In this document: in pieces, positions 21,361 through 35,365 of the stretch
Layout of the letters: each line of letters begins with the position of its first letter
Position numbering within the stretch: position 1 is the first letter of the stretch
The notes under the pieces: model-generated
Seen by the model: only the letters and a program-made list of their open reading frames with translations
What the model was told of the DNA's origin: nothing
Database searches by the model: none
Position numbers and translations under genes: made by a program
Assembly (NCBI GenBank): GCA_913058495.1
Contig: CAJXQC010000001.1
Span: 124,779 to 188,778 of the forward strand
Origin: an uncultured Balneola sp.
GTDB lineage: Bacteria; Bacteroidota; Rhodothermia; Balneolales; Balneolaceae
Length of the DNA stretch: 64,000 bases
Direction of reading: 5' to 3'

Positions 21361-22098
21361 ATGGCTAGACTAGATTACATGGACGTATATTTTTCGGTGC
21401 AATCCTTTCAGGAAGAGGATCTGCGTGGAAAATCTGCGGTTATTATTGATGTGCTGAGGGCTGCTTCGTCGATGGTGACGGCGCTGAGTAACGGTGCAAA
21501 AAAGATCATTCCGGTTGGAGCAATGGAAGACGCAGTCCGTATTGCCCAAACTATGGACAACAAGGATTATCTGCTTTGCGGAGAGCAAAATGGTCATAAG
21601 ATCGAAGGTTTTCATTTAGGAAACTCACCGTTGGAGTACACAGAAGATGTAGTAGCGGATAAAACGTTGATCATCAACACCACAAACGGAACGAAGGCGA
21701 TCAAAAAAGCAGCGCTTGCAAATCGTATGTATGTGGGCTGTTTTCTAAATCAGAAAAGCATTTTGAAAGTACTGGAAGACCACGATGATGATGTGGTTTT
21801 GATCTGTTCAGGTTGGCAGGGAAAAATGTCGTTAGAAGATACGCTGTTCGCTGGATCTATTATTTATAAAATGTGCAAAGGAAAGCTTCCGAAGAATACC
21901 AAAGACGGAGTAAAGGTCGCGTTTAGTTTATATCAGAGCTATAAAGATGAGCTGGAAACAGCCATTGAATCCAGCGATCATGCAATTCGTCTTAAAGAAC
22001 TTGTTCCTGACGGGGATATTCCTTTTGTTTGTGAAGTAGATAAATTTGACGTCCTTCCGGGAATGAAGGATGGAATTTTAATCAATTTGAATGGCTAA
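21361..22098 (+). CDS. comB: 2-phosphosulfolactate phosphatase
   Basis: Hydrolyses (R)-2-phospho-3-sulfolactate to sulfolactate. ComB features are visible: M-D-V-Y-F-S-V, the V-I-I-D-V-L-R-A-A-S-S-M-V-T-A-L near residues 26-41, C-G-E-Q-N-G-H-K-I-E-G-F-H-L-G-N-S-P-L-E-Y, then T-T-N-G-T-K-A-I, and C-S-G-W-Q-G-K-M-S-L-E-D-T-L-F-A-G. The length of 245 residues is typical. Its stop overlaps the ftsK start by 8 bases. The preceding enzyme of the pathway, ComA, is encoded at 54.5 kb. In other phyla this pair leads to coenzyme M or sulfolactate; in this lineage sulfonolipid synthesis is an attractive but unproven sink. Confidence 0.9.
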   Translation: MARLDYMDVYFSVQSFQEEDLRGKSAVIIDVLRAASSMVTALSNGAKKIIPVGAMEDAVRIAQTMDNKDYLLCGEQNGHKIEGFHLGNSPLEYTEDVVADKTLIINTTNGTKAIKKAALANRMYVGCFLNQKSILKVLEDHDDDVVLICSGWQGKMSLEDTLFAGSIIYKMCKGKLPKNTKDGVKVAFSLYQSYKDELETAIESSDHAIRLKELVPDGDIPFVCEVDKFDVLPGMKDGILINLNG

Positions 22099-24634
22099 AA
22101 AGAAGTTAAATACAGCCGGAAATTCTAAGGCAGGTATTGACGATAACCGAAAAGTAGAGATCATCGGAGTAATAATTATTGCTCTTGCGATTTTACTTGG
22201 CTTAAGTATCGTTTCCTACACTCCGGAAGATTACCAATATGCGACCAAACTGTCGTTTATGGATCTTTTCAATAAAGATGCATCCTCCAGATTAGTGCAA
22301 AACTGGCTTGGGCCTGTGGGAGCTTATCTTTCGCATTTCGTGGTTCATCAACTGTTTGGTTATACCAGTTTTATTTTGGCGGTTCTGATCTTTTTCCAAG
22401 GTTGGCACATTTTCAGAAGGCGGAATTATAAAGACCTGAGCTGGATCACCATTTTGGGTGTTTGGAGCATGATCCTTTTCTCAACTGTTTTGGGATGGAT
22501 GAACTTCAATCTTGATTTTCCTGCTGATTCAGTATGGAGCGGAGCGGCCGGAGTAGCAATCTCAAAAGTGCTTCAGAACTTTACCAGTAGTATCGGATCC
22601 GGAATAATCTTATCACTCTTGGCGATCGTAACGTTATTGTTACTTTGGGACAGAGATCTTCAAAAATCCATCGACAATCTGAAATTATGGATCGAAAACG
22701 TTCAGCAGAAACTGGAAGATGCCCGCATTGCCCGCGCTGAAAAGAAAGAAATAAAAGCACAGGAAAGAGAAGAGCGTTTAGCCGAAAGAAGAGCAGAACG
22801 TGAAGCGGCTAAAGAAGAAAAAGCAGTCAAGAAAGAAGAGAAAAAGAGCGCTAAAGCTGAAACTAAAAAAGAAGTTAAAGAGCCCGAAGCGCCTGCGCCA
22901 ACGATTGATGACATTGTAGCAAAATCTCACGAACAAGATCTGGAGCGCATCGAAAAGGAAAAACGAGCTTCTGATGACATCGATAACAGACAAAAAGCGG
23001 CTATAGACAAAAAATCTAATCTGGAAGAAAAAGAAGTTCTGGACGAGGACAGTGAAGAGCTGGAAGTTTCGGTATACAAAGGCGAAGGCGATGAGGAAGC
23101 CGGAGAAAGAGATCTGGACAAGATAAATCGGGATAAAGCGAAGGAAGTTCCTGTTATCAGATATAAGTTCCCAACCATTGATCTTTTAGACACGCCCGCA
23201 GAAGACAGAACAGAAGTTGATCTGGAAGAGATTCGGGAAAACAAGCGCATCATCCTGGATAAACTGAAAAGACACCGAATTGAGATCGTTGGAATTAACG
23301 CCATTGTGGGCCCAACGGTAACGCTGTATGAACTTGAGCCGGCACCGGATGTTAAGATCAGTAAGATCGAAAGCTATTCCAATGACTTAAAAATGGCGAT
23401 GGCTTCAAAAGGTTTACGCATGCTTTCTCCGATTCCGGGAAAATCTGCAGTTGGGATTGAAGTTCCGAACAGCACGCGCGAAATGGTGTACATCAAGCAG
23501 GTCATCAACACAAAGAAATTTGTTGAAACAGACATGACCTTGCCGGTTGCATTCGGTAAAACGATCGAAAATGAAGTGTTCATGATCGACCTTACAAAAA
23601 TGCCTCACTTGTTAATGGCGGGAGCAACCGGTTCCGGTAAATCGGTTGGTGTGAATACGATTATTACTTGTCTGCTTTATAAGTGCGATCCGGAAAATCT
23701 GAAATTTGTGATGATCGATCCGAAGAAGATCGAATTGGCATTGTATCGAAATATCCAGAATCATTTTCTGGCGATGCTACCTAATGCAGACGAACCGATC
23801 GTAACAGATACTTCCAAAGCTCTGGATACACTGAACAGTGTGTGTAAGGAAATGGATGATCGCTATGATCTACTGAAAATGGCGCTGGTTCGGGATATCA
23901 AAGCGTACAACAAGAAATTCAAAGAAGGCGAACTGGACGAAGAATTAGGTCATCGCCATCTGCCTTACATCGTAGTTATCATCGACGAGCTTGCTGACTT
24001 AATGATGACAGCCGGAAAACAAATTGAAGAGCCTATCGCCCGTCTAGCTCAGCTTGCACGAGCTATTGGAATCCATTTGGTGGTTGCAACTCAGCGACCG
24101 TCTGTAAATGTAATTACAGGTACAATCAAGGCGAACTTCCCGGCACGAATTGCTTATCAAGTTGCATCAAAAGTAGATTCCAGAACTATTCTGGATATGG
24201 GTGGAGCGGATCAGTTGGTTGGAGCCGGAGATATGCTGTTTACCAACGGCGCAGGAATGACCAGACTTCAAAATGCATTTGTATCAACAGAAGAAGTAGA
24301 AAGAATAAACTCATTTATTGGCCAACAAGCCGGGTATAAGGAACCATTTCATCTGCCGATAATACAAGAGGACAATGTAGGAATACCTGACCCGTTAGAT
24401 GATATAGATGAAATGTTTCAGGCTGCAGCCAAAGTTGTGGTGTTACATCAACAGGGATCCGTTTCATTATTACAAAGAAAATTAAAGATCGGCTACAACA
24501 GAGCCGGCAGAATCATAGATCAACTATTTAATGCAGGAATCGTTGGACCATATCAAGGAAGTACCGCACGCGATGTTCTCGTTCAGGAAGAAGAAGAATT
24601 ACAAGAGATCTTTGATGGCCTTGAAAACCTCTAG
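22091..24634 (+). CDS. ftsK: FtsK/SpoIIIE-family DNA translocase
   Basis: A septum-located motor that clears chromosome ends before division. The N-terminal 200 residues have four membrane segments. A highly charged Lys/Glu/Arg linker follows (about 205-340). The motor domain carries Walker A A-T-G-S-G-K-S-V-G (about 512-520), Walker B V-I-I-D-E-L-A-D-L-M, and the A-T-Q-R-P-S-V-N-V-I-T-G motif. The C-terminal winged-helix gamma domain (Q-R-K-L-K-I-G-Y-N-R-A-G-R-I-I-D-Q-L) would read polar KOPS-like sites. The length of 847 residues is normal. It overlaps comB by 8 bases and lolA by 20, so it is translationally coupled on both sides. Confidence 0.96.
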   Translation: MAKKKLNTAGNSKAGIDDNRKVEIIGVIIIALAILLGLSIVSYTPEDYQYATKLSFMDLFNKDASSRLVQNWLGPVGAYLSHFVVHQLFGYTSFILAVLIFFQGWHIFRRRNYKDLSWITILGVWSMILFSTVLGWMNFNLDFPADSVWSGAAGVAISKVLQNFTSSIGSGIILSLLAIVTLLLLWDRDLQKSIDNLKLWIENVQQKLEDARIARAEKKEIKAQEREERLAERRAEREAAKEEKAVKKEEKKSAKAETKKEVKEPEAPAPTIDDIVAKSHEQDLERIEKEKRASDDIDNRQKAAIDKKSNLEEKEVLDEDSEELEVSVYKGEGDEEAGERDLDKINRDKAKEVPVIRYKFPTIDLLDTPAEDRTEVDLEEIRENKRIILDKLKRHRIEIVGINAIVGPTVTLYELEPAPDVKISKIESYSNDLKMAMASKGLRMLSPIPGKSAVGIEVPNSTREMVYIKQVINTKKFVETDMTLPVAFGKTIENEVFMIDLTKMPHLLMAGATGSGKSVGVNTIITCLLYKCDPENLKFVMIDPKKIELALYRNIQNHFLAMLPNADEPIVTDTSKALDTLNSVCKEMDDRYDLLKMALVRDIKAYNKKFKEGELDEELGHRHLPYIVVIIDELADLMMTAGKQIEEPIARLAQLARAIGIHLVVATQRPSVNVITGTIKANFPARIAYQVASKVDSRTILDMGGADQLVGAGDMLFTNGAGMTRLQNAFVSTEEVERINSFIGQQAGYKEPFHLPIIQEDNVGIPDPLDDIDEMFQAAAKVVVLHQQGSVSLLQRKLKIGYNRAGRIIDQLFNAGIVGPYQGSTARDVLVQEEEELQEIFDGLENL

Positions 24635-25229
24635 TCTTATTTCATTGCTGTTGATCGTTTTTGCGATCTCGGTACAGGCACAAACCAAAGTTTTTCCAAA
24701 GCTGAAAGCCAATTTCGAAAACGAAAAGGTTTTTGTAGCTGATTTCGAACACGTTTATTACGACTCTTACACAAAAGAATCGTTAAGCAGCCAGGGAAAG
24801 ATCTGGGTTTCATCTGATAAATACCGGTTAGACAGTGAAAATCAATTGCTGATCGTGGATGGGGAAACTTCCAGAGTTTATGATGAAGTTCGGAACAGGG
24901 TTATTGTAAGTGATTATTCTGAAGAAGACGATGATTTTGCTCCATCAAGGATGTTGAACGGAGTAGATTCCACTTATACCATTACGGAAGAAAAAATGGA
25001 TAAAGGCAGAACAAAGATCATCATGAAAACAGACGATGATTTCGCCTTATATCTGACGGTTGAGATCATTGTGAATTCTGAAGCAATCCCGATAAGCATT
25101 ACAGCATATGATTTTTCAGAAAATGAGATCATAACCACCTTTAAAAACGGATCTTTTTTGCTTAAAAATGAAGAATTATTTGTACTACGCTATCCTCAGG
25201 ATGCAGAAATAGTTGATACCAGGTACTGA
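24615..25229 (+). CDS. lolA: LolA-like outer-membrane lipoprotein carrier protein
   Basis: A periplasmic chaperone that carries lipoproteins to the outer membrane. The start at ATG 24615 opens a signal peptide (M-A-L-K-T-S-S-L-I-S-L-L-L-I-V-F, cleavage after V-Q-A-Q); in-frame codons upstream to 24531 overlap ftsK too far. The mature 180 residues are the LolA half-barrel: F-V-A-D-F-E-H, S-S-Q-G-K-I-W-V, K-Y-R-L-D-S-E-N, and the late N-E-I-I-T-T-F strand before F-V-L-R-Y-P. The FtsK-LolA gene order recurs in many bacteria. A LolC/E-type permease is encoded separately at 49.4 kb. Confidence 0.88.
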   Translation: MALKTSSLISLLLIVFAISVQAQTKVFPKLKANFENEKVFVADFEHVYYDSYTKESLSSQGKIWVSSDKYRLDSENQLLIVDGETSRVYDEVRNRVIVSDYSEEDDDFAPSRMLNGVDSTYTITEEKMDKGRTKIIMKTDDDFALYLTVEIIVNSEAIPISITAYDFSENEIITTFKNGSFLLKNEELFVLRYPQDAEIVDTRY

Positions 25230-25231
25230 TC

Positions 25232-26266
25232 TTGAAAACAGCATTAAAAGTAATTGCAGGAATTCTGGTCGCCGGTTTTTTTCTCTGGCTTGCATTCAAA
25301 GAAGTAGAATTTGAGCAAATTGTAGAAGCATCCAAATCCATGAGCTATGGCTGGATCATTCCGTTTGTACTAGCTACGCTTTCGGCACATTTTATTCGGG
25401 CGGAAAGGTGGAGATTATTATTCAACGATAAAGCTAAAACGCCGCACAGAGTCACCCTTTTTACAGGTGTGATGGTAGGATATTTGTCAAACATTCCATT
25501 TGCAAGATTAGGAGAAGTTACACGACCTGTGTATGTAGCTCGACAGGTTGACGAAAGCAACAGTAAGTTGATAGGGACGATCGTTCTTGAGCGAATCATT
25601 GATATGGTGAGTTTACTTTTACTGATGACTTTTGTGGTCATATTCATGGTATCAGACCCCGAAATACTCAGCAATTTGTTTGGGATAGACATCACCGACT
25701 CTGAAGTTCTTCTTTCCTTTGCGTTTTCTATTGGTAAATATTTAGGGGTCGCAATTCTGGGTTTTGCAGTGATCTATTTTATCCTGAGATCTCTAAGTAC
25801 AAAAGTAGAGTTTATATCTAAAGGATTTGAAAAATTCAAAGTGATATCAAAGACATTTATTGATGGAGTTCTAGCGGTAAAGGAACTTAAAAACTGGCCA
25901 CTTTTTGTTTTATACACGGCGCTGATCTGGGTTTGCTACATTGGGATGACTTACATTCCATTCTGGATGTTCGACATGCACTCCATTTATGATCTTTCTT
26001 ATGCAGATGCTTTAGTGCTTACAATGGTTTCAGCAGTAGGGATTATCATTCCGACTCCCGGTGGAGTAGGCACTTATCATTTATTTGTAACCAAAAGTTT
26101 ATTTCTGCTTTATGCTGTTCCGGAAGCAATCGGTTTGGCGTATGGAACCATAACCCATGCTTCAACACTCGCTGTTATTATTATCAGCACGCCTTTGTTG
26201 TTGGTTTTGGATAAATATATTGCGTTAAAGCATGCGGCTAAAACTGAGGGAACAAGCGTAGAATAA
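25232..26266 (+). CDS. Flippase-like integral membrane protein (UPF0104 / LPG-synthase TM family)
   Basis: 344 residues with about eight membrane helices in the order of the lysylphosphatidylglycerol-synthase transmembrane domain family. Typical motifs are R-A-E-R-W-R-L-L-F (residues 52-60), N-I-P-F-A-R-L-G-E-V-T-R-P, and a late I-P-T-P-G-G-V-G-T-Y-H. The start is TTG 25232, two bases after the lolA stop; no ATG occurs before residue about 39 and the N-terminal helix would be lost without it. Members move or modify lipids or glycans. No catalytic C-terminal domain is fused, so it is more likely a transporter than an LPG synthase. Confidence 0.82.
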   Translation: MKTALKVIAGILVAGFFLWLAFKEVEFEQIVEASKSMSYGWIIPFVLATLSAHFIRAERWRLLFNDKAKTPHRVTLFTGVMVGYLSNIPFARLGEVTRPVYVARQVDESNSKLIGTIVLERIIDMVSLLLLMTFVVIFMVSDPEILSNLFGIDITDSEVLLSFAFSIGKYLGVAILGFAVIYFILRSLSTKVEFISKGFEKFKVISKTFIDGVLAVKELKNWPLFVLYTALIWVCYIGMTYIPFWMFDMHSIYDLSYADALVLTMVSAVGIIIPTPGGVGTYHLFVTKSLFLLYAVPEAIGLAYGTITHASTLAVIIISTPLLLVLDKYIALKHAAKTEGTSVE

Positions 26267-26343
26267 ATCAGTACATCTTTTGACGTACACAGGTTAACCT
26301 TGCTCTAAATTTTTAGTACATTCTTAAAACTTCTTTTTTGACG

Positions 26344-28062
26344 ATGAAACGATCCTATTTTGCAACCATCTTACTTCTATTCATCATTTGTCCGGCATTG
26401 TTCGCTCAAAGCGGGAATACTCAAAATTCATTATTACCTGAAATAGATCCGCAGGATATTGAGATAAGAAGTGAGTTCAGAGCCAGGTTTCCGGGAATCA
26501 GAAGGCAACCGATTTTAGGATTTAATCCCAAACCCAGAGTTTTTCGGATCGATCCGAACAGAGTTCCTTTTATGGAATCTGATAAAGAGGCCGTTGCCAG
26601 TATCGCACTCACACAACTAGACAGACCTGAGCCTCCTGCCAAATCAGTTTTACAAGATCCATCCAGAACAAATGCTTTTATTAAAGCGGGTTTCGGAAGC
26701 TTTACCACTCCGGAACTGGAGGCTTACGTATTAAGAAGGCTGAATAACGAAAGTATTGCTTCCGTAAATGTAGATTATTCCAGCTCAAGTGGTCATTTAG
26801 ATGATCAGGATTCCGGTTTCAGATTTTTTGATGTGAACGGCGTTTATGGAACAAAATTAAATGGCGGAGCAAAACTGTCTGCTAAAGTAGGTGTATTCAG
26901 TGACTTTAATCACCTGTTTGAATTATCAAATAATGTGCCTTCAGATAATTCAGGGACTTCCGAAAAAGACTATAAGGGCTTTAATGCAGGGCTTATTCTT
27001 GAAAACAATGCCAATGAACTGGAAGGATGGGAACTGTATTTGAATGCTTCTGCTGTAGGAGTCGATCTTATGGGACAAAATGCAGCTTTAAGGGGAAGTC
27101 AGTCAGAGCAATTTATACAAGCAGGCTTTGAAAAAGAATGGGCAGGTTCAAAACTCTATGATGTGCTTAGTGCAAAAGTCGATATTAAAGGTGGAAATTA
27201 TTCAGCAGAAGGAATCGGAGATACCCAATGGATTAGCTCTTCAGCTACTTTTGGATACAGCAGTTTATTCAACTACGCCACAGAAATAGAATTGGAAGGT
27301 GGAATAGCGTATGTATCTGACGGATTCAGAAGCAAACCTTTATTAGTCTTAAACTCAGCAATGAATCATACTGTAAAAGAAGGGTTAAATCTGACCGGAA
27401 AGATCTATGCTCGTCCGGAAATAAAATCTGTTTGGGAATACCATCAACAAAACAGATTTTTGAATGTGAGTTCTCAAACTCAATTTCAATATATATTCGG
27501 AGTAGACGGAGGAATAGAATTTAAACCACTGGAATCCACAAAACTTTTTGGAAGCATTTCTTACCAGGCAATTGATAATTATAGTTACTACTTAAGATCT
27601 TCAAGAACATTCGGTGTAAATACAGAAGAAACATTCTATACAATCAATTATGCAGATGTGTCTAAATTCAGAATGGAAGTAGGAGTCACTCAACAAATAG
27701 TTTCCGATAAATTCTGGTTTGATGGATTTATATATGCACAAAGACCTGAGCTTAAAAGCGGAGGAGACGTTCCGTTTGAAGAAAGAGTGGGTGCAGAGGG
27801 AGTATTTTCAGTAAAGCCGGTTAATCAATTTACAGTAAGTTCATGGGTACAGTATGTTGGAGAAAGAGAAGATGGAAATACTTCTAATACGCAAACAATA
27901 GATGGTTATCTTCTTTTAAATGGTGGAGCAGACTACAAGATCAATGAAAAATTTGGCGTTTATTTGAAAGTGTTGAATATTCTGGGACAAAACTATGAGG
28001 TTTGGCAAGGTTATGAAGAGCGACCTTTTCAAATTTTCGGAGGTATTAAAGTAACTTTATAA
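26344..28062 (+). CDS. Outer-membrane beta-barrel protein (annotated as TonB-dependent-receptor-like in relatives)
   Basis: About 572 residues. The signal peptide (M-K-R-S-Y-F-A-T-I-L-L-L-F, ending L-F-A-Q) is followed by I-D-P-Q-D-I-E-I-R-S-E-F and R-R-Q-P-I-L-G-F-N-P-K-P-R, a region with no plug-domain or TonB-box motif that I can see. Amphipathic strands then run to a C-terminal K-V-T-L. It looks like a TonB-receptor-sized barrel without plug. ATG 26344 is chosen over TTG 26338. It heads a tight group (3-, 2-, 13-, 2- and 10-base gaps) with two HU-like genes, exbB, exbD and a TonB-like gene, so an energised outer-membrane role is likely. Confidence 0.75.
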   Translation: MKRSYFATILLLFIICPALFAQSGNTQNSLLPEIDPQDIEIRSEFRARFPGIRRQPILGFNPKPRVFRIDPNRVPFMESDKEAVASIALTQLDRPEPPAKSVLQDPSRTNAFIKAGFGSFTTPELEAYVLRRLNNESIASVNVDYSSSSGHLDDQDSGFRFFDVNGVYGTKLNGGAKLSAKVGVFSDFNHLFELSNNVPSDNSGTSEKDYKGFNAGLILENNANELEGWELYLNASAVGVDLMGQNAALRGSQSEQFIQAGFEKEWAGSKLYDVLSAKVDIKGGNYSAEGIGDTQWISSSATFGYSSLFNYATEIELEGGIAYVSDGFRSKPLLVLNSAMNHTVKEGLNLTGKIYARPEIKSVWEYHQQNRFLNVSSQTQFQYIFGVDGGIEFKPLESTKLFGSISYQAIDNYSYYLRSSRTFGVNTEETFYTINYADVSKFRMEVGVTQQIVSDKFWFDGFIYAQRPELKSGGDVPFEERVGAEGVFSVKPVNQFTVSSWVQYVGEREDGNTSNTQTIDGYLLLNGGADYKINEKFGVYLKVLNILGQNYEVWQGYEERPFQIFGGIKVTL

Positions 28063-28065
28063 GCT

Positions 28066-28263
28066 ATGACGAACGATTTTTTAAAAGCATTTGGGTTAAC
28101 GATTCGTGATCAGATCATCATGAAAAATTCTGTCGAAATAAAAGGTCTGGGTACTTTTAAAGCAGAACACACAAGCCAACAACAGGAAAGAAAGGGAGAT
28201 GGAAAGCTCGTAATGCTTCCTCCTAAAGACAGTATTGAATTCAAAGCTGATATGGGGGAATAA
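28066..28263 (+). CDS. Small HU-like (CCDC81-type) protein
   Basis: 65 residues. V-E-I-K-G-L-G-T-F-K-A-E-H, then a short polar loop and L-V-M-L-P-P-K-D-S-I-E-F-K-A-D, resemble the beta-arm half of HU/IHF proteins (G-x-G-x-F ... P ... v-x-F-k). The N-terminal helical part is short. This fits the prokaryotic HU-CCDC81 domain 1, which in Bacteroidota usually precedes a second HU-like domain in the same polypeptide; here the second is the next gene, two bases on. DNA binding is not shown, since many such domains lack the basic arm. Confidence 0.65.
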   Translation: MTNDFLKAFGLTIRDQIIMKNSVEIKGLGTFKAEHTSQQQERKGDGKLVMLPPKDSIEFKADMGE

Positions 28264-28265
28264 CA

Positions 28266-29987
28266 ATGCTGATAGATAATGAAAAGTTTATTGCTCTGCT
28301 TGCTGATAATTCGGGAATAGAAAAAGAGAAAGTTGAGAAGTACCTGGAAGAGCTTATAAATGAGATGAAGGCTTCTTTTGATGAAGGGGAAGGATATGAA
28401 GTGGAAGGCTTCGGGATTTTCAGCAAATTAGGATCAAACATTCTATTTATCCCTTCTGATGAGCTGGAAACGGAGGTCAATTATAAGTATGTAGGTATGG
28501 AGCCTATTGAACTTCCCGGAGGAGCACAACAGCAAGAAACTGAGTCACCTGAAGAGGAAGAAGAAAATCCTATTCAGGGAATTCTTGACGGTGGAGAAAC
28601 TGAAGAACCGGAAGAATACGAAGATCCGTTTGCCGAGTTGTTCAATGAAGCAGAAGAGCATGAAAAAGCAGGGCAGGAGCAGACCGAAAAAGGAGACCTC
28701 AGCGAAGAGGAGATTGAAGCTGTTGTTGAAGAAGAGATAGAAAGCGAAGACACTGAAGAAATAATTTCGGAAGAAACAGAGAAAGAAGAAGAACCGTTAG
28801 AAGATTCACTCAAAGATATATTTGGTTCAGATGAGCCCGAAGAAGAAGAAGCAGAACCTAAGGAGGATGAAATACCTGGTCCTGAAAAATGGGGCATAGA
28901 TGCACATAAAGAGGAAGAACATGAGGGTGCTTTTTCAGGTTTGCTGGGTGATAATGCAGATGAACCCGAATTAATTGATGAAGACGACATTTTTGCAACA
29001 GAAGAAGAAATCACTGCTGAAGAGGAATTGTCTGAAACTGATGAAGGACTTCAGCAAGAAGAAGATGAGACTGAAGAAATAGATTTTTCTGCATTGGAAG
29101 ATGACACTTCTGATGAAGATTTCGAAGATCCATTCGAGTCCTTGGAGGAAGAACAAGAAGAAGATTTTGTGCCCGTTGTTACGAATGTGTCTTCAGGAAA
29201 AGCTTCTAAAACGGAAGTTGATGAGGATCAAAAGGAAGAACAAGAAGAGAAGACCGAAAAAACAAGCAGGACACCGAAGAGTCCCAGAGACAGAAAGCAA
29301 AGTTCTCCGGTGTTTTTATATATGATTCTTGCTCTGGTTTTGTTGGGAGGAACCGGATATCTATTAGCTTATTTTGGTGTTGTTAATATTGAGGGAATTA
29401 CACCATCTTCAGCTTCAACACAAGTAGCCCAGAACACTCCGCCGGTAACACAGCCGGAAAGCACACCACCGCAAACTTCACAGCCAGAAGAGGAGCAGCA
29501 GATAAGAGATGTGCCGGAGATTGAAGCGAACAGCGAAAATACTCCTGATGAAGCGGAAGAAAATACTGGAAATATTTCTGAATCCGAATCTGAAGCTACT
29601 GACGATGTAACACCTCAAGACCGGGAAAATGATATAGCTCCACTGGTTGCTGATGAAAAAGCTCCTGGCGATGGAGGTATTATTTCTCCTGTAAATATTC
29701 AGGAACAAGCCGAAGTATATGGTTTAAAAGGAACTGCAACCGAAGCCGGGAACAATGGCTATACGATCGTACTATATACTTTAAGCCGGAAGTCCGGAGC
29801 AGACGCTCAGTTTGAAAAATTATCTAAAGATGGCTTTCGGGTTATTATTAAAGAAAATCCGTCACAGGAATTCGGTGTATTATACAGAGTAAGCATCGGA
29901 CAATTTGAGTCACTGGCAGATGCAGCTATTGCTGCTGAAAAGGTTGATTCTGAAATACTTGGAAATTATATCATCACAAAAATTTAA
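28266..29987 (+). CDS. HU-like / SPOR-domain membrane protein with long acidic linker
   Basis: A 573-residue protein in four parts. Residues 1-75 are HU-CCDC81-like (two helices, then Y-E-V-E-G-F-G-I-F-S-K). Residues about 85-345 are strongly acidic and of low complexity (mostly Glu, Asp, Pro, Ser). Residues about 347-372 form one membrane helix (F-L-Y-M-I-L-A-L-V-L-L-G-G). After a Pro/Thr/Gln and acidic stretch, a SPOR domain closes the protein (about 490-573; Y-T-I-V-L-Y-T-L, F-G-V-L-Y-R-V-S-I-G-Q-F-E-S, ending I-I-T-K-I). SPOR domains bind bare glycan strands at the septum. The HU-like part would be cytoplasmic. Its gene lies between an HU-like gene and exbB. Antisense frames over the acidic part are Ser-rich shadows. 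Confidence 0.82.
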   Translation: MLIDNEKFIALLADNSGIEKEKVEKYLEELINEMKASFDEGEGYEVEGFGIFSKLGSNILFIPSDELETEVNYKYVGMEPIELPGGAQQQETESPEEEEENPIQGILDGGETEEPEEYEDPFAELFNEAEEHEKAGQEQTEKGDLSEEEIEAVVEEEIESEDTEEIISEETEKEEEPLEDSLKDIFGSDEPEEEEAEPKEDEIPGPEKWGIDAHKEEEHEGAFSGLLGDNADEPELIDEDDIFATEEEITAEEELSETDEGLQQEEDETEEIDFSALEDDTSDEDFEDPFESLEEEQEEDFVPVVTNVSSGKASKTEVDEDQKEEQEEKTEKTSRTPKSPRDRKQSSPVFLYMILALVLLGGTGYLLAYFGVVNIEGITPSSASTQVAQNTPPVTQPESTPPQTSQPEEEQQIRDVPEIEANSENTPDEAEENTGNISESESEATDDVTPQDRENDIAPLVADEKAPGDGGIISPVNIQEQAEVYGLKGTATEAGNNGYTIVLYTLSRKSGADAQFEKLSKDGFRVIIKENPSQEFGVLYRVSIGQFESLADAAIAAEKVDSEILGNYIITKI

Positions 29988-30000
29988 ACATTTCATTTAC

Positions 30001-30708
30001 ATGAACACCCTTCTTTTACTATTTCAAGATTCAACGGCAGTTGCTGATTCGTTAGCAATGGCACTCGAAGGAGAAACAATTACATTATTCGATCTTTTAA
30101 TTGAGGGAGGGGTTTTAATGATCCCGATCTTCGTGCTTTTTATGCTTTCTATGTACGTAATTGTAGAACGTTGGCGAGCTTTAAACCGATCGCATACGGA
30201 TACAGAGAGATTTTTAAGTTCGGTTGAAGGTTTGTTAAAGTCCGGGAAGCAATCGGATGCTATGGCTTACTGTGATGATCATGACAAACCGTTGGCAAGA
30301 ATTATTAAAGCCGGAATCAAACGATTAGGTCGCCCGATTCGAGATATTGAAGACGCCATTGACAATGCCGGGAAAAAAGAAATATTCTTTCTTGAAAAAA
30401 GAATGAATTGGTTAGCAACCATTGCCGGTGTAGCACCGTTACTAGGTTTTACGGGAACGGTAACTGGTATGATCGAGGCTTTCATGGATATTCAATCCCT
30501 TCAGGGAAATGTTAACCCAAGCGAATTAGCCGGAGGTATCTGGGAAGCTCTTATTACCACGGCTGCAGGATTGATTGTTGGTCTGATAGCATTCGGGTTC
30601 TATAACTTTTTACTAGGTAAGATTAACAGGTCTATTTTTGAGCTTGAAAATGCATCTGCAGATTTTATGGACTTACTTCAATCACCGGCACCTAAAAAGC
30701 AGGCATAA
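30001..30708 (+). CDS. exbB: ExbB/TolQ-family proton channel protein
   Basis: An inner-membrane stator subunit that uses the proton gradient with ExbD to drive a TonB/TolA-type partner. The start is ATG 30001, since upstream codons lie inside the preceding gene. It has three membrane helices (about 30-52, 140-162 and 175-200). Conserved stretches are A-P-L-L-G-F-T-G-T-V-T-G-M-I-E-A-F and W-E-A-L-I-T-T-A-A-G-L-I-V-G, with the family Thr residues that line the channel. At 235 residues it is a standard size. It is coupled to exbD (2-base gap). Tol-type versus Exb-type function cannot be told from sequence alone. Confidence 0.92.
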   Translation: MNTLLLLFQDSTAVADSLAMALEGETITLFDLLIEGGVLMIPIFVLFMLSMYVIVERWRALNRSHTDTERFLSSVEGLLKSGKQSDAMAYCDDHDKPLARIIKAGIKRLGRPIRDIEDAIDNAGKKEIFFLEKRMNWLATIAGVAPLLGFTGTVTGMIEAFMDIQSLQGNVNPSELAGGIWEALITTAAGLIVGLIAFGFYNFLLGKINRSIFELENASADFMDLLQSPAPKKQA

Positions 30709-30710
30709 TT

Positions 30711-31127
30711 ATGGCACGCGATTTTAGACGAGGAGATAAAAGGTTAACCCCGTTATCGCTATTCTCTCAATCTTCATTGACAGATATAGTATTGCTGTTG
30801 TTGATCTTCTTTTTGCTGACTTCTTCATTCGTAACAAACTTTGGGATAAAAGTGAATATTCCGAAAGCAGAGTCCGGATCAACTACTCAAAACGAGTTCA
30901 TTTCTGTTGCAATCACTAAAGAAGGCGAGTTTTATGTGGATGGGGACTTAACGGCACGAGGTTCTCTAGCTCTTCAGATAAGGGCAGCACGCAATAATAA
31001 GCAGAGTCAAACGATTATATTACGTGCCGATAAGGACGCAAAAGTAGATGATGCGGTGAGAGTTATGAATATCGGTAAGGCCTTGAATTTAAAATTGGTC
31101 ATGGCTACGGAACAAAGTTCATTATAA
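30711..31127 (+). CDS. exbD: ExbD/TolR-family protein
   Basis: 138 residues: a short cytoplasmic basic N-terminus, one membrane helix with the essential proton-carrying Asp (S-L-T-D-I-V-L-L-L-L-I-F-F, D25), and a periplasmic domain (V-N-I-P-K-A-E-S-G ... I-I-L-R-A-D-K-D-A-K-V). Partner of the ExbB-type protein upstream and the TonB-like protein 10 bases downstream. There is no odd feature. Confidence 0.92.
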   Translation: MARDFRRGDKRLTPLSLFSQSSLTDIVLLLLIFFLLTSSFVTNFGIKVNIPKAESGSTTQNEFISVAITKEGEFYVDGDLTARGSLALQIRAARNNKQSQTIILRADKDAKVDDAVRVMNIGKALNLKLVMATEQSSL

Positions 31128-31137
31128 ATTAATCAGG

Positions 31138-31959
31138 ATGAAGAAAACTAAATTCACACAAGATGATAGTGTTGCACTTACGGTAACGTTAAGTGTGAGC
31201 ATTATTATGGTTTTGTTTTCTCTGTGGTATACACTGGATATGAACCAAAACTTCCGACCTTCTTTTATTGAAGTAGAGTTCGGTGAGTTTAGATCAGGAA
31301 CATTGGCAGAGTTTTCTGAAGTTAAGGAAGATGAAGTAGCTACCCGACCAAATCCTTCCGAAGTTAAAACCGAGGAACCCGTTGAAGAAACCCCGATTCC
31401 GGAAGAACAGCCCACTAATCCGACAGAAGAAATTACCAAACCTGTAGATCTTCCTGATGAGGTTGAAGAAGTAAAAGAAGAAAAGGTCGAAACACCTAAG
31501 ACGGATGTTGTAGACCCCACCAAAGAGACGGCGGAAGAAGTAAAAGAAGAAATTGAGATTCCTCCGCAGGCAAAAGAAGATCTGGAAGTTAGCGACGGTG
31601 CAAAAGAAAGTGGAGATATTAAAGGTAATACCGGAGAAACAAATGCTGATGCCGGAACAGGAGTTGATGATGAGAAGTCAGCTCCTTACGAACTAAAATG
31701 GGATGGGAGTATCGAAAGAGACCCGATGGTTCAGCCTTTACCCGAAAATACTGCAAACACAGAAGGGGTTATTTCCGTAAAATTTCAGGTAAAGCCTGAT
31801 GGTTCGGTAGGCTTGATTATTCCATTGAAGAAAATGAATCCTGAGTTAGAAAAAGAAGTGCAGCGGACTTTAAGGAGCTGGAAATTTTCAAAACTTCCAA
31901 GTGGAGTGCCTCAACAAGCACAATGGGGAACAATAACTTTCCGATTTGTATTCGGATAG
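31138..31959 (+). CDS. TonB/TolA-like energy transducer
   Basis: 273 residues. One N-terminal membrane helix (about 14-34) is followed by a long Glu/Pro/Val/Lys-rich periplasmic spacer (about 55-165) and a C-terminal domain (about 195-273) with G-V-I-S-V-K-F-Q-V-K-P-D-G-S-V and L-R-S-W-K-F, which is the TonB C-terminal pattern. The spacer is more acidic than the usual Lys-Pro/Glu-Pro spacer. It is the last gene of the run starting at 26344, so it probably couples ExbBD to the barrel protein or, through Tol-like action, to division. No separate pal or tolB is near. Confidence 0.8.
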   Translation: MKKTKFTQDDSVALTVTLSVSIIMVLFSLWYTLDMNQNFRPSFIEVEFGEFRSGTLAEFSEVKEDEVATRPNPSEVKTEEPVEETPIPEEQPTNPTEEITKPVDLPDEVEEVKEEKVETPKTDVVDPTKETAEEVKEEIEIPPQAKEDLEVSDGAKESGDIKGNTGETNADAGTGVDDEKSAPYELKWDGSIERDPMVQPLPENTANTEGVISVKFQVKPDGSVGLIIPLKKMNPELEKEVQRTLRSWKFSKLPSGVPQQAQWGTITFRFVFG

Positions 31960-32164: not shown

Positions 32165-35100
32165 ATGAAGGCAAGAAAGCTATTCTATTCCGTATTCACT
32201 TGTTTAATTGTTTCGTTTTTTGTGGCTGATATCTCTTCAGCTCAGATTTTCGGGCATGGTGAGGAAACGGATTCTCCTACTTATAAAAAAGAACTCTTTA
32301 AAGATTTAAATTATAGAAATATTGGACCATACAGGGGTGGGCGCTCAGTAGCCGTATCAGGTCATGCTTCACAACCATATACTTTTTACACCGGATTTGC
32401 TGGCGGAGGTGTTTTCAAAACAACAGATGGGGGAAGCAGTTGGATAAACGTATCTGATGATTTTTTTAAAACAGGTTCTGTAGGGGCGATTTCTGTGGCA
32501 CCTTCGGATCCGAATGTGATCTATGCCGGAATGGGCGAAACGGATATACGCGGAAATATGAGTGCGGGAGATGGGATGTATAAATCTACTGATGCAGGGA
32601 AAACCTGGAAACATATCGGTTTAGGCGAAAGCCAGTTTATTGGTGATATAGAAGTGCACCCTTCAAACGATGATATCGTTTGGGTAGCAGCTATGGGACA
32701 GATCTTTGGTATGGATGGAAATGAAGAAAGAGGTGTTTTCAAATCTACAGACGGAGGAGCTACCTGGAAAAAAGTTTTATTTAGAAATAATAAAACCGGA
32801 GCTGTGGACATCGCTGTTGATCCGAATAATCCCAGAATACTATTCGCAGCACTTTGGGAAGCATACAGAAATCCTTGGGAAATGAGCAGTGGTGGTGAAG
32901 GAAGTGGATTGTTCCGAAGCAAAGACGGCGGAGAAACCTGGGAAGAAATTTCAAAATTCCCGGGAATGCCAAAAGGATTACTTGGAAAGATCGGTGTCGC
33001 TGTTTCGCCTGCAAATTCGAACAGAGTTTGGGCAATCATAGAGAATCAAAATGGTGGAGGTTTGTTTCGCTCCGAAAATGGTGGAGATACCTGGAGAAGA
33101 ATAAGTGCGGACAGAAATCTTCGCCAAAGAGCTTGGTATTACTCTAAAGTTATTGCAGATCCGAAAAATGAAAACGGAGTATATGTTCTTAATGTAGGTT
33201 TCTGGAAATCAACAGATGGTGGAAGTAAATTCAGCAGGATTGGAACCCCACATGGCGATCATCATGATCTTTGGATCGATCCAAATGATCCGCAACGAAT
33301 GATCATAGGTGATGACGGTGGAGGTCAGGTAACATATAATGGCGGTGAAGGTTGGTCTTCATATTATACTTCAGCTACAGCACAAATCTATCAGGTTACT
33401 ACGGATAACCAATTTCCATATATGGTGTACGGAGCTCAGCAGGATAACAGCACGTTCGCCATCAAGAACAGAACGAATGGCTTTGGAATTGATGAAAGCG
33501 ATTGGTGGCCGGTAGCCGGTGGTGAAAGTGGATATATTGCTCCTGATCCGGAAGATCCGAATGTTACTTTCGGAGGAAGTTACGGTGGATATCTCAATAA
33601 ATATGACAAAGAACTAGGACTAAGTGATCGCGTTGATGTTTGGCCTGATAATCCTATGGGTGCAGGCGCTGAAAAGCTTAAGTACAGATTTCAGTGGACA
33701 TTCCCGATCATAATCTCTCCTCATAATCCTGATGTTCTTTATACCACATCGCAACATGTGCATCGTTCAACAGATGAAGGAATGAGCTGGGAAACGATCA
33801 GTGACGATCTCACCAGAAATGACAAGGAAAAGCAGAAAGAATCAGGTGGGCCGATTACAAAAGATGATACCTCTGTAGAGTATTACAATACGATCTTTAC
33901 TTTTGTTGAGTCACCAATTCAGGAAGGTACTTTTTGGGCGGGTTCAGATGACGGATTAATTCATATCAGCAGAGATAACGGAGAAACTTGGGAGAATGTA
34001 ACACCGAAGGGATTACCGGAAACAATGATCAGTATCATTGATGCTTCCCATCATGATGCAGGAACAGCTTACTTTGCTGCTACACGATATAAGTTCAATG
34101 ACTATGCACCGATGATCTACAAAACCACAAATTATGGTAAAAGCTGGACTAAGATCACAAAAGGAATTCCGGCAATGGATTTCACCCGTGTGGTTAGAGA
34201 AGACCCAAACAAAAAAGGCCTACTGTATGCAGGAACAGAAACCGGAGTATATGTTTCTTTTGATGCGGGCGAAAACTGGCAGGATCTGCAATTAAATCTT
34301 CCGGCTGTTCCGGTTACAGATATGGCAGTTCATAAACGCGATAAAGATCTCGTAGTGGCAACTCAGGGGCGTTCGTTCTGGATACTGGATGATCTGCCTG
34401 TGCTTCACCAAATGAGTGATCAGATCGCTAAAGCAGAAAATCATCTTTTCCAGCCGGAGAGAACATACTTGTTCGGAGGTCCTAGCTTCAGCAGACCGGG
34501 TTCTACAGTAGGGCAGAATCCTGAACGAGGAGCTGTTTTCTTTTACACGTTGAGAGACGAAATGGCGGAAGAGATCAAGCTGGAAATTCTAGATCCTTCG
34601 GGAAATACCATACGAACCTATTCCAGCATCAAAGATGATAATGATCGTCCTGTAAGAGAGTCATCGACTTTTTATGAAGAAGAAGATCAAACCAGACCAA
34701 GTGTGGTAGCAAATCAACCCGGTCTAAATAAGTTTGTTTGGGGATTGGATTATCCTGACGTAACCAGAATTGATGGTACACAAATTCTTTGGGCAGGAAA
34801 TACCTCAGGACCTTCCGCAATTCCGGGAACATACACTGTTAAAATGCATATCGGCGATGAGGTTGTTGCAGAACGTAATTTTGAAGTAGTAAAAGACCCA
34901 AGATTAGAAAATGTAACCCAGCAAGATTTTGTAGCACAGTTTGAGTTAGTAAAAACGATCAAAGCAAAACTGGACACCACTCATAAAACCATCAATAGAA
35001 TTCGTGAGATTCGAAAAGAGATCAACGAAATGATGGCTGAAGCAAAGGACAACAAAGAGCTACAGGAAAAAGCGAAAACGATGCTGGAAGCAATGTCAGA

Positions 35101-35365
35101 AGTTGAAAATGAGCTGATGCAAACCAAAGCCGAAGCAACTCAGGATGTATTGAACTTTGAGATCAAGCTGAATAACAAGCTTGCGGCACTGGCCAGCACT
35201 GTAGCAACCGGCTACGGCAGACCAACTAAACAACAATATGCAGTGTATGAAGATCTGGCTGGAAAAGTAGATGCTCAATTCAAGCGTTTGCAAGCAGTTT
35301 GGGATGGTGAATACGAAAACATCATTCAGGAATTTGAAAGCAAAGGCGGAAAGATCCAGAACTGA
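32165..35365 (+). CDS. Secreted VPS10 / Asp-box beta-propeller protein
   Basis: 1066 residues. The signal peptide is M-K-A-R-K-L-F-Y-S-V-F, with cleavage after S-S-A-Q. The N-terminal two thirds form a beta-propeller with many Asp-box (BNR) loops of the S-T-D-G-G-x-x-W type (for example near residues 84, 142, 197, 249 and 303). The protein resembles sortilin/VPS10 and glycosyl-hydrolase-like propellers common in Bacteroidota. The C-terminal part has an Ig-like strand region (about 790-910) and an extended helical stretch (about 925-1066) that may form a coiled coil. The exact activity is unknown; it may bind or cleave glycans or peptides. It is monocistronic, 205 bases after the TonB-like gene, with no clear terminator between. 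Confidence 0.85.
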   Translation: MKARKLFYSVFTCLIVSFFVADISSAQIFGHGEETDSPTYKKELFKDLNYRNIGPYRGGRSVAVSGHASQPYTFYTGFAGGGVFKTTDGGSSWINVSDDFFKTGSVGAISVAPSDPNVIYAGMGETDIRGNMSAGDGMYKSTDAGKTWKHIGLGESQFIGDIEVHPSNDDIVWVAAMGQIFGMDGNEERGVFKSTDGGATWKKVLFRNNKTGAVDIAVDPNNPRILFAALWEAYRNPWEMSSGGEGSGLFRSKDGGETWEEISKFPGMPKGLLGKIGVAVSPANSNRVWAIIENQNGGGLFRSENGGDTWRRISADRNLRQRAWYYSKVIADPKNENGVYVLNVGFWKSTDGGSKFSRIGTPHGDHHDLWIDPNDPQRMIIGDDGGGQVTYNGGEGWSSYYTSATAQIYQVTTDNQFPYMVYGAQQDNSTFAIKNRTNGFGIDESDWWPVAGGESGYIAPDPEDPNVTFGGSYGGYLNKYDKELGLSDRVDVWPDNPMGAGAEKLKYRFQWTFPIIISPHNPDVLYTTSQHVHRSTDEGMSWETISDDLTRNDKEKQKESGGPITKDDTSVEYYNTIFTFVESPIQEGTFWAGSDDGLIHISRDNGETWENVTPKGLPETMISIIDASHHDAGTAYFAATRYKFNDYAPMIYKTTNYGKSWTKITKGIPAMDFTRVVREDPNKKGLLYAGTETGVYVSFDAGENWQDLQLNLPAVPVTDMAVHKRDKDLVVATQGRSFWILDDLPVLHQMSDQIAKAENHLFQPERTYLFGGPSFSRPGSTVGQNPERGAVFFYTLRDEMAEEIKLEILDPSGNTIRTYSSIKDDNDRPVRESSTFYEEEDQTRPSVVANQPGLNKFVWGLDYPDVTRIDGTQILWAGNTSGPSAIPGTYTVKMHIGDEVVAERNFEVVKDPRLENVTQQDFVAQFELVKTIKAKLDTTHKTINRIREIRKEINEMMAEAKDNKELQEKAKTMLEAMSEVENELMQTKAEATQDVLNFEIKLNNKLAALASTVATGYGRPTKQQYAVYEDLAGKVDAQFKRLQAVWDGEYENIIQEFESKGGKIQN

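Follow-up and report, generated by a model that had tools for sequence, protein, structure and literature searches.

A split variant of the Bacteroidota HU-CCDC81 SPOR protein in Balneola and its conserved gene block

Several described systems share parts with the locus considered here. SPOR division proteins of the FtsN/DamX type possess a cytoplasmic N-terminus, a single transmembrane (TM) helix and a C-terminal SPOR domain, and SPOR domains of other bacteria are known to bind septal glycans. The eukaryotic CCDC81 proteins (PF14908) are microtubule inner proteins in which no SPOR or TM domain is known. The closest relatives are the Bacteroidota proteins carrying the HU-CCDC81_bac_1, HU-CCDC81_bac_2 and SPOR domains (PF18174, PF18175 and PF05036), in which two HU-like domains and a SPOR domain are encoded by one gene. 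As regards the Tol-Pal system, PMC12204202 states that tol-pal loci are not identifiable in Bacteroidetes, that other outer-membrane-stabilising systems are expected there, and that PorE is proposed as one counterpart.

Layout, domains and kinship of the pair

The window, that is, the whole stretch of 64,000 nucleotides analysed here, derives from an uncultured Balneola sp. and carries on its forward strand the gene of a free 65-residue HU-fold protein, HU1 (28066-28263), followed after 2 nt by that of a 573-residue protein, HU2-SPOR (28266-29987). These coordinates, lengths and the overall layout agree with those given by an earlier, sequence-only reading of the window. The start of HU1 cannot be placed earlier, because the stop codon of the preceding outer-membrane protein (OMP) gene (28060-28062) lies in frame two codons 5' of its ATG. 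Against PF00216 (Bac_DNA_binding) HU1 scores 27.5 bits, above the Pfam cut-off of 22.4; the match begins at profile position 22, without the first HU helix, and the HU1 profile aligns to IHF-alpha from residue 24 on. The protein spans the second helix of HU/IHF to just past the last beta strand and is devoid of both the first and the last helices.

The second chain consists of a HU head without a DNA arm (residues 1-85), an acidic spacer (86-346), a TM helix (about 348-368), a periplasmic linker and, past the TM helix, a C-terminal SPOR domain (496-569; 29 bits vs a cut-off of 21). Residues 6-53 of the head match PF00216 with 23.7 bits, again above 22.4. The spacer comprises 261 residues, 109 of which are Asp or Glu (42%) and 17 Lys or Arg, with a net charge of -92. 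Basic residues follow the spacer, and the TM helix begins near residue 348, an arrangement that should leave the HU2 head in the cytoplasm; the topology prediction thus bears out the cytoplasmic position assigned to it beforehand.

The CCDC81-like character proposed in the sequence-only reading stood in part. Both HU domains pass PF00216 and the SPOR domain passes its own model, while the CCDC81-specific cut-offs are missed by both HU domains: the window proteins reach 12.6 bits for HU-CCDC81_bac_1 (PF18174; cut-off 26), of which HU1 would be the counterpart, and 17.7 bits for HU-CCDC81_bac_2 (PF18175; cut-off 35). The second-best Pfam match of HU1 is PF14908 (eukaryotic CCDC81), at 22.7 bits and under the cut-off of 26.1. 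The connection with CCDC81 is drawn from two other sources. Firstly, among the orthologues, G014 reaches the PF18175 cut-off with 35.7 bits, and so does G010 with its neighbours in the frame (35.2 bits, compared with 34.9 bits alone). Secondly, in profile-profile comparison the read-through HU1-HU2 profile aligns colinearly with the fused Bacteroidota tandem (hhalign E 8.9e-13, 106 columns), the HU1 profile alone matching the first half (E 1.7e-6) and the HU2 profile alone the second half (E 6.3e-11). The helix absent from HU1 is equally absent from the first domain of the fused proteins, and the split point falls between two natural domains.

Outside the class, matches to HU-CCDC81_bac_1 and HU-CCDC81_bac_2 occur in one chain in all eight proteins tested with Pfam (L095, L096, L097, L098, L099, L100, L102 and L104), with L099, L100 and L102 under the cut-off for one or both models, and the SPOR cut-off is passed only by L095, L096 and L104. 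A direct sequence search of the fused protein L095 against solved structures gave no match up to E 10. Judged from these alignments, the pair is a split variant, kept throughout the class, of the HU-CCDC81 SPOR protein known from Bacteroidota; this upholds the earlier proposal of a split homologue of a two-HU SPOR protein that is a single chain in Bacteroidota. It is called a variant rather than a plain member because the window proteins miss the CCDC81 cut-offs and depart from the single-chain feature.

Distribution and age of the two-gene form

Genes lying only 2 nt apart whose homologues are fused elsewhere might be the product of an assembly or sequencing frameshift, and the sequence-only reading had named such an error, between 28255 and 28270, as what would overturn it. 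The relatives speak against it. Among the 30 best-matching ones, HU1 is a separate ORF just upstream of HU2-SPOR in 30/30, the distance from the HU1 stop to the HU2 start lies between -14 and +14 nt, and HU1 ends in any of the three stop codons, TAA, TAG or TGA. Between congeners, HU1 codon changes amount to 19 synonymous vs 1 nonsynonymous in one comparison (L009) and 7 vs 0 in another (L006); HU1 is under purifying selection.

The wider sample of Balneolales consists of 57 loci, namely the 30 best matches and 27 picked to span families, drawn from 128 genomes with matches to the HU2 profile, some of which match canonical HU only; loci L105-L129, which partly duplicate genomes already included, and an extra fused copy, L145, were left out of the 57. 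Two genes are present in 55 of these loci and one fused gene in the other two (L081 from G037 and L139 from G043), while three further genomes of the same genus (G040, G045 and G048) carry the split form. In the other orders of the class the split is found in 14/14 loci, with a weak HU1 match in L075 (E 0.05) and L077 (E 0.04). In total, separate ORFs occur in 69 of the 71 class loci read, and in each of the 71 HU2 has HU1 as its neighbour or fusion partner. With so many split loci, and with stops and frames differing among them, a frameshift is ruled out as the source of the split and retains next to no probability; the sequences indicate that the split is real and old. The additional fused HU1-HU2 copy, in G055 (L145:1833-3938), encodes 701 residues with a weak SPOR match and is without the Tol neighbours of the main locus.

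The same distribution bears on the reading of HU1 as a nucleoid protein in its own right that has only the operon in common with HU2-SPOR. Its score above the PF00216 cut-off is in keeping with this reading. However, HU1 is without the first and last HU helices, it is never found apart from HU2 in the 71 class loci, and within the fused protein its match is to the first half, so that an independent role appears highly improbable.

The conserved gene block and the Tol-Pal question

All neighbouring genes considered here are on the forward strand. Upstream of the pair are the gene of the DNA translocase FtsK (22091-24634; PF01580, 7.3e-59), that of a LolA-like periplasmic protein assigned from a weak match and synteny (24531-25229; PF03548, 15.7 bits, under the cut-off), that of a membrane protein of the LPG_synthase_TM family, which is a conserved upstream neighbour in Balneolales by synteny (25232-26266; PF03706, 2.9e-42), and, directly upstream of HU1, that of the outer-membrane barrel protein OMP (26338-28062). 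Downstream follow a TolQ/ExbB-type motor subunit (30001-30708; PF01618, 4.1e-30), a TolR/ExbD-type subunit (30711-31127; PF02472, 7.5e-26) and a TonB/TolA-like force transducer with a TonB_C domain (31138-31959; PF03544, 6.8e-7). Among the NCBIfam models, tolQ (2.4e-24) ranks above exbB (6.7e-13) for the first of these, both under their equivalog cut-offs, and the tolR and ExbD models tie for the second. A 1066-residue Sortilin-Vps10/BNR repeat protein is encoded downstream of the block, at 32165-35365. A scan for promoters and terminators gave numbers near chance, and the operon limits therefore rest on gene spacing only.

The order OMP, HU1, HU2-SPOR, TolQ, TolR, TonB-like is conserved. Long flanks were available for 27 Balneolales loci, 25 of which have OMP, TolQ, TolR and TonB alongside the pair; the other two, L149 and L155, are at contig ends. 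OMP, TolQ and TolR accompany it in 13/14 loci of the other orders of the class, and in L072 a stretch of 2.6 kb downstream yielded no TolQ. Outside the class, TolQ/TolR adjoin in 4/10 loci (L097, L100, L101 and L104) and OMP in 3/10.

OMP has no Pfam match, and its assignment derives from an AF2 model, Foldseek and alignment. The model shows 22 strands, with the barrel starting at residue 109, and in Foldseek its best matches are TonB-dependent transporter structures (lowest E 4.4e-18). The pLDDT stays below 50 over residues 12-106, a low-confidence segment that is not in itself proof of plug absence. According to the model, OMP is likely a 22-strand barrel of the TonB-dependent transporter type without a folded plug. 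An N-terminal periplasmic segment of about 45 residues is near-invariant in sequence yet disordered in the model.

TolB_N (PF04052) has no match in the window's genome, while the E. coli, Caulobacter and Bacteroides controls are positive. Because no TolB_N was found in this genome, the block may be regarded as a candidate Tol-Pal counterpart. A more far-reaching proposal, put forward tentatively and on balance rather unlikely, is that the block from OMP to the TonB-like gene takes the place of the missing Tol-Pal system in Balneolota, Rhodothermota and part of Bacteroidota: TolB and Pal would be replaced by a septal SPOR anchor, headed by a HU heterodimer, and by a TonB-receptor-like, predicted plug-less barrel whose periplasmic tail is invariant, so that a cytoplasmic, perhaps nucleoid, signal would gate constriction of the outer membrane. 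A block conserved throughout a class offers a concrete and testable candidate for an outer-membrane-stabilising system in bacteria without identifiable tol-pal loci.

The HU1-HU2 head, the proposed anchor and known systems

The head was modelled on close relatives. Eight relatives with HU1 and HU2 in frame provided the input, the HU1 stop being read as serine, which imposes a short covalent link; the window's own HU1 and HU2 lie in different frames and hence outside read-through modelling. The resulting chain of 154 residues has a pLDDT of 77 and a pTM of 0.68 (the five models range from pLDDT 47.6 to 77.0) and consists of one helix and a sheet for HU1 and two helices and a sheet for HU2. The best solved match over both domains (Foldseek and VIA-align) is 8v3l_A, a chain of a Tetrahymena doublet-microtubule entry (Z 9.7, rmsd 4.0, 122 residues). 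In PMC11961760, CCDC81b is named for the related entry 8V3I, and by analogy 8v3l_A may be CCDC81b. Two further matches, to single-chain IHF, 2iie (Z 6.3, rmsd 3.6, 96 residues), and to 9io5_T of the Mycoplasma mobile G1-ATPase gliding complex (Z 7.9, 123 residues), have Z values under 8, which can reflect a common arrangement. Nearly all single HU chains align to the HU2 part only, over about 70 residues. Collectively, the modelling suggests with moderate confidence that read-through HU1-HU2 folds as a HU/IHF-type pseudo-dimer.

HU1 and HU2-SPOR are reasonably probable as the two subunits of one septal anchor with an obligate heterodimeric head, acting in constriction together with a Tol-like motor and a barrel. 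In the cytoplasm, HU1 (one helix, sheet and arm) would pair with HU2 (two helices and sheet, no arm) into a HU/IHF-type heterodimer that corresponds, in two chains, to the fused HU-CCDC81_bac_1/_2 head carried by SPOR proteins of Bacteroidota. A long, variable and usually acidic tether would connect this head, through one TM helix, to the periplasmic SPOR domain, which would bind septal peptidoglycan. Anchor, co-encoded TolQ-TolR-TonB-like motor and predicted plug-less barrel may then act in cell constriction, the anchor linking a cytoplasmic partner to the septal wall and the outer membrane. The window's genome has other proteins with SPOR matches, so that HU2-SPOR need not be its main septal SPOR protein. 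At another locus of this genome (L175, G000:C4:55000-74000), a MotA/ExbB-like gene lies about 1.4 kb from a 576-residue ORF with two or more SPOR-like repeats.

In the sequence-only reading, by contrast, HU1 would be a soluble partner able to bind the membrane-bound HU2 and let it go again, and the acidic spacer might serve as a DNA mimic or an extended tether. Separate chains would indeed allow exchange, and the window's spacer is strongly acidic. Nevertheless, the genes are always adjacent, with the spacing given above in the 30 best-matching relatives, natural fusions exist, and 12 of 71 homologues have a spacer that is not acidic (net charge -5 or higher), a count from which L074 (no TM by the test used) and N-rich loci were left out. 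Such a switch is therefore improbable, and an obligate pair is preferred because of the tight gene coupling in all loci read, the fusions L081 and L139 and the model. As for the spacer itself, its length varies from 50 to 353 residues among these homologues, and since its acidity is not conserved, the idea of a DNA mimic is weak and a conserved mimic is ruled out; a variable tether fits the sequences better.

Whether the head contacts DNA is a separate question. It is possible, though doubtful, that the HU1-HU2 head binds DNA and thereby fastens the nucleoid, or some chromosomal site, to the septum in the course of chromosome partitioning. Both domains have the HU fold, and HU1 retains an arm, close to normal in length, in which a His is conserved and a stretch is rich in Gln/Lys. 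The title of a 2017 study by Burroughs et al. suggests chromosome partitioning for this HU clade. FtsK, moreover, is encoded upstream in 14/16 long Balneolales loci (L079-L094), but in 0/14 loci of the other orders (L065-L078); this linkage was accordingly dropped as general evidence for chromosome segregation and kept for Balneolales only. Further evidence against DNA tethering comes from the arms. An arm ending in Asn-Pro in both subunits, a feature of HU/IHF, is absent from the pair: HU2 has only a short hairpin in its place, too short for an arm, and none of the 69 HU1 arms listed has an Asn-Pro tip. The charge of the HU1 arm averages only +0.7 (range -4 to +4), and that of one canonical HU encoded in the window's genome is +4. 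Net charge of the whole domain was discarded as proof against DNA binding, since that of the genome's canonical HU L164 is also 0. The earlier argument that an acidic spacer speaks against DNA contact is weak in view of the spacers that are not acidic; better ones are the armless HU2 and the HU1 arm without Asn-Pro. The two-gene form eases study of the HU-CCDC81 head, as each subunit can be expressed on its own and a simple assay would tell a DNA-binding from a protein-binding head.

A second cassette occurs in the same genome outside the window (L174, G000:C43:5884-7277), where a free 94-residue HU is followed by a 370-residue protein composed of HU, acidic linker, TM helix and LysM-like tail. 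The latter has a full HU domain (PF00216, 89.5 bits), and the profile of its tail aligns with the LysM protein Kbp (5.2e-10), the Pfam LysM score being under the cut-off. The free HU precedes the long HU-LysM protein in 24/24 loci (of 30, six brought in by the C-terminal piece being left out), and the HU domains of this cassette retain the tip of the arm, which is Asn-Pro in almost every one of the 24. Counted by hand in the rows listed, about 70 of the order's 126 genomes encode the long HU protein, and every one of them belongs to the same family as the window; a class-wide search gave 53/175, again in that family only. A free HU beside a membrane-held HU with a wall-binding tail is therefore encoded twice in this genome, and the LysM cassette suggests that HU heads held at the membrane recur as a design in the window's family. 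Among the titles and abstract openings of the literature searched, no account of the split pair or the LysM cassette was found. Four points are new here: the split extends through the class, fused versions exist inside the order, the gene block may be a counterpart of Tol-Pal, and a LysM cassette is present.

Compared with HU/IHF heterodimers (PF00216), the pair shares the fold, and its predicted two-domain arrangement resembles single-chain IHF; in contrast, HU1 is without helices 1 and 3 and without the Asn-Pro tip, and HU2 is armless and membrane-tethered. Eukaryotic CCDC81 is approached through the second-best Pfam match of HU1 and through the Tetrahymena doublet-microtubule chain that is the model's best solved match. 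FtsN/DamX-type proteins, as noted above, have the cytoplasmic N-terminus, single TM helix and C-terminal SPOR domain predicted for HU2-SPOR, but neither a HU head nor an obligate small partner. OMP resembles TonB-dependent transporters in its predicted 22-strand barrel. With Tol-Pal the locus has in common the TolQ, TolR and TonB_C genes directly downstream of HU2-SPOR, whereas the window's genome has no TolB_N match and the block contains a SPOR protein and an outer-membrane barrel instead. The likeness is greatest to the Bacteroidota HU-CCDC81 SPOR proteins, which have the same domain order (first HU domain without its first helix, second HU domain, linker, TM helix, SPOR) and, in some cases (L097 and L100), OMP and TolQ/TolR neighbours; they differ in being encoded by one gene rather than two, while the window's spacer is longer and more acidic and its HU domains remain under the CCDC81 cut-offs.
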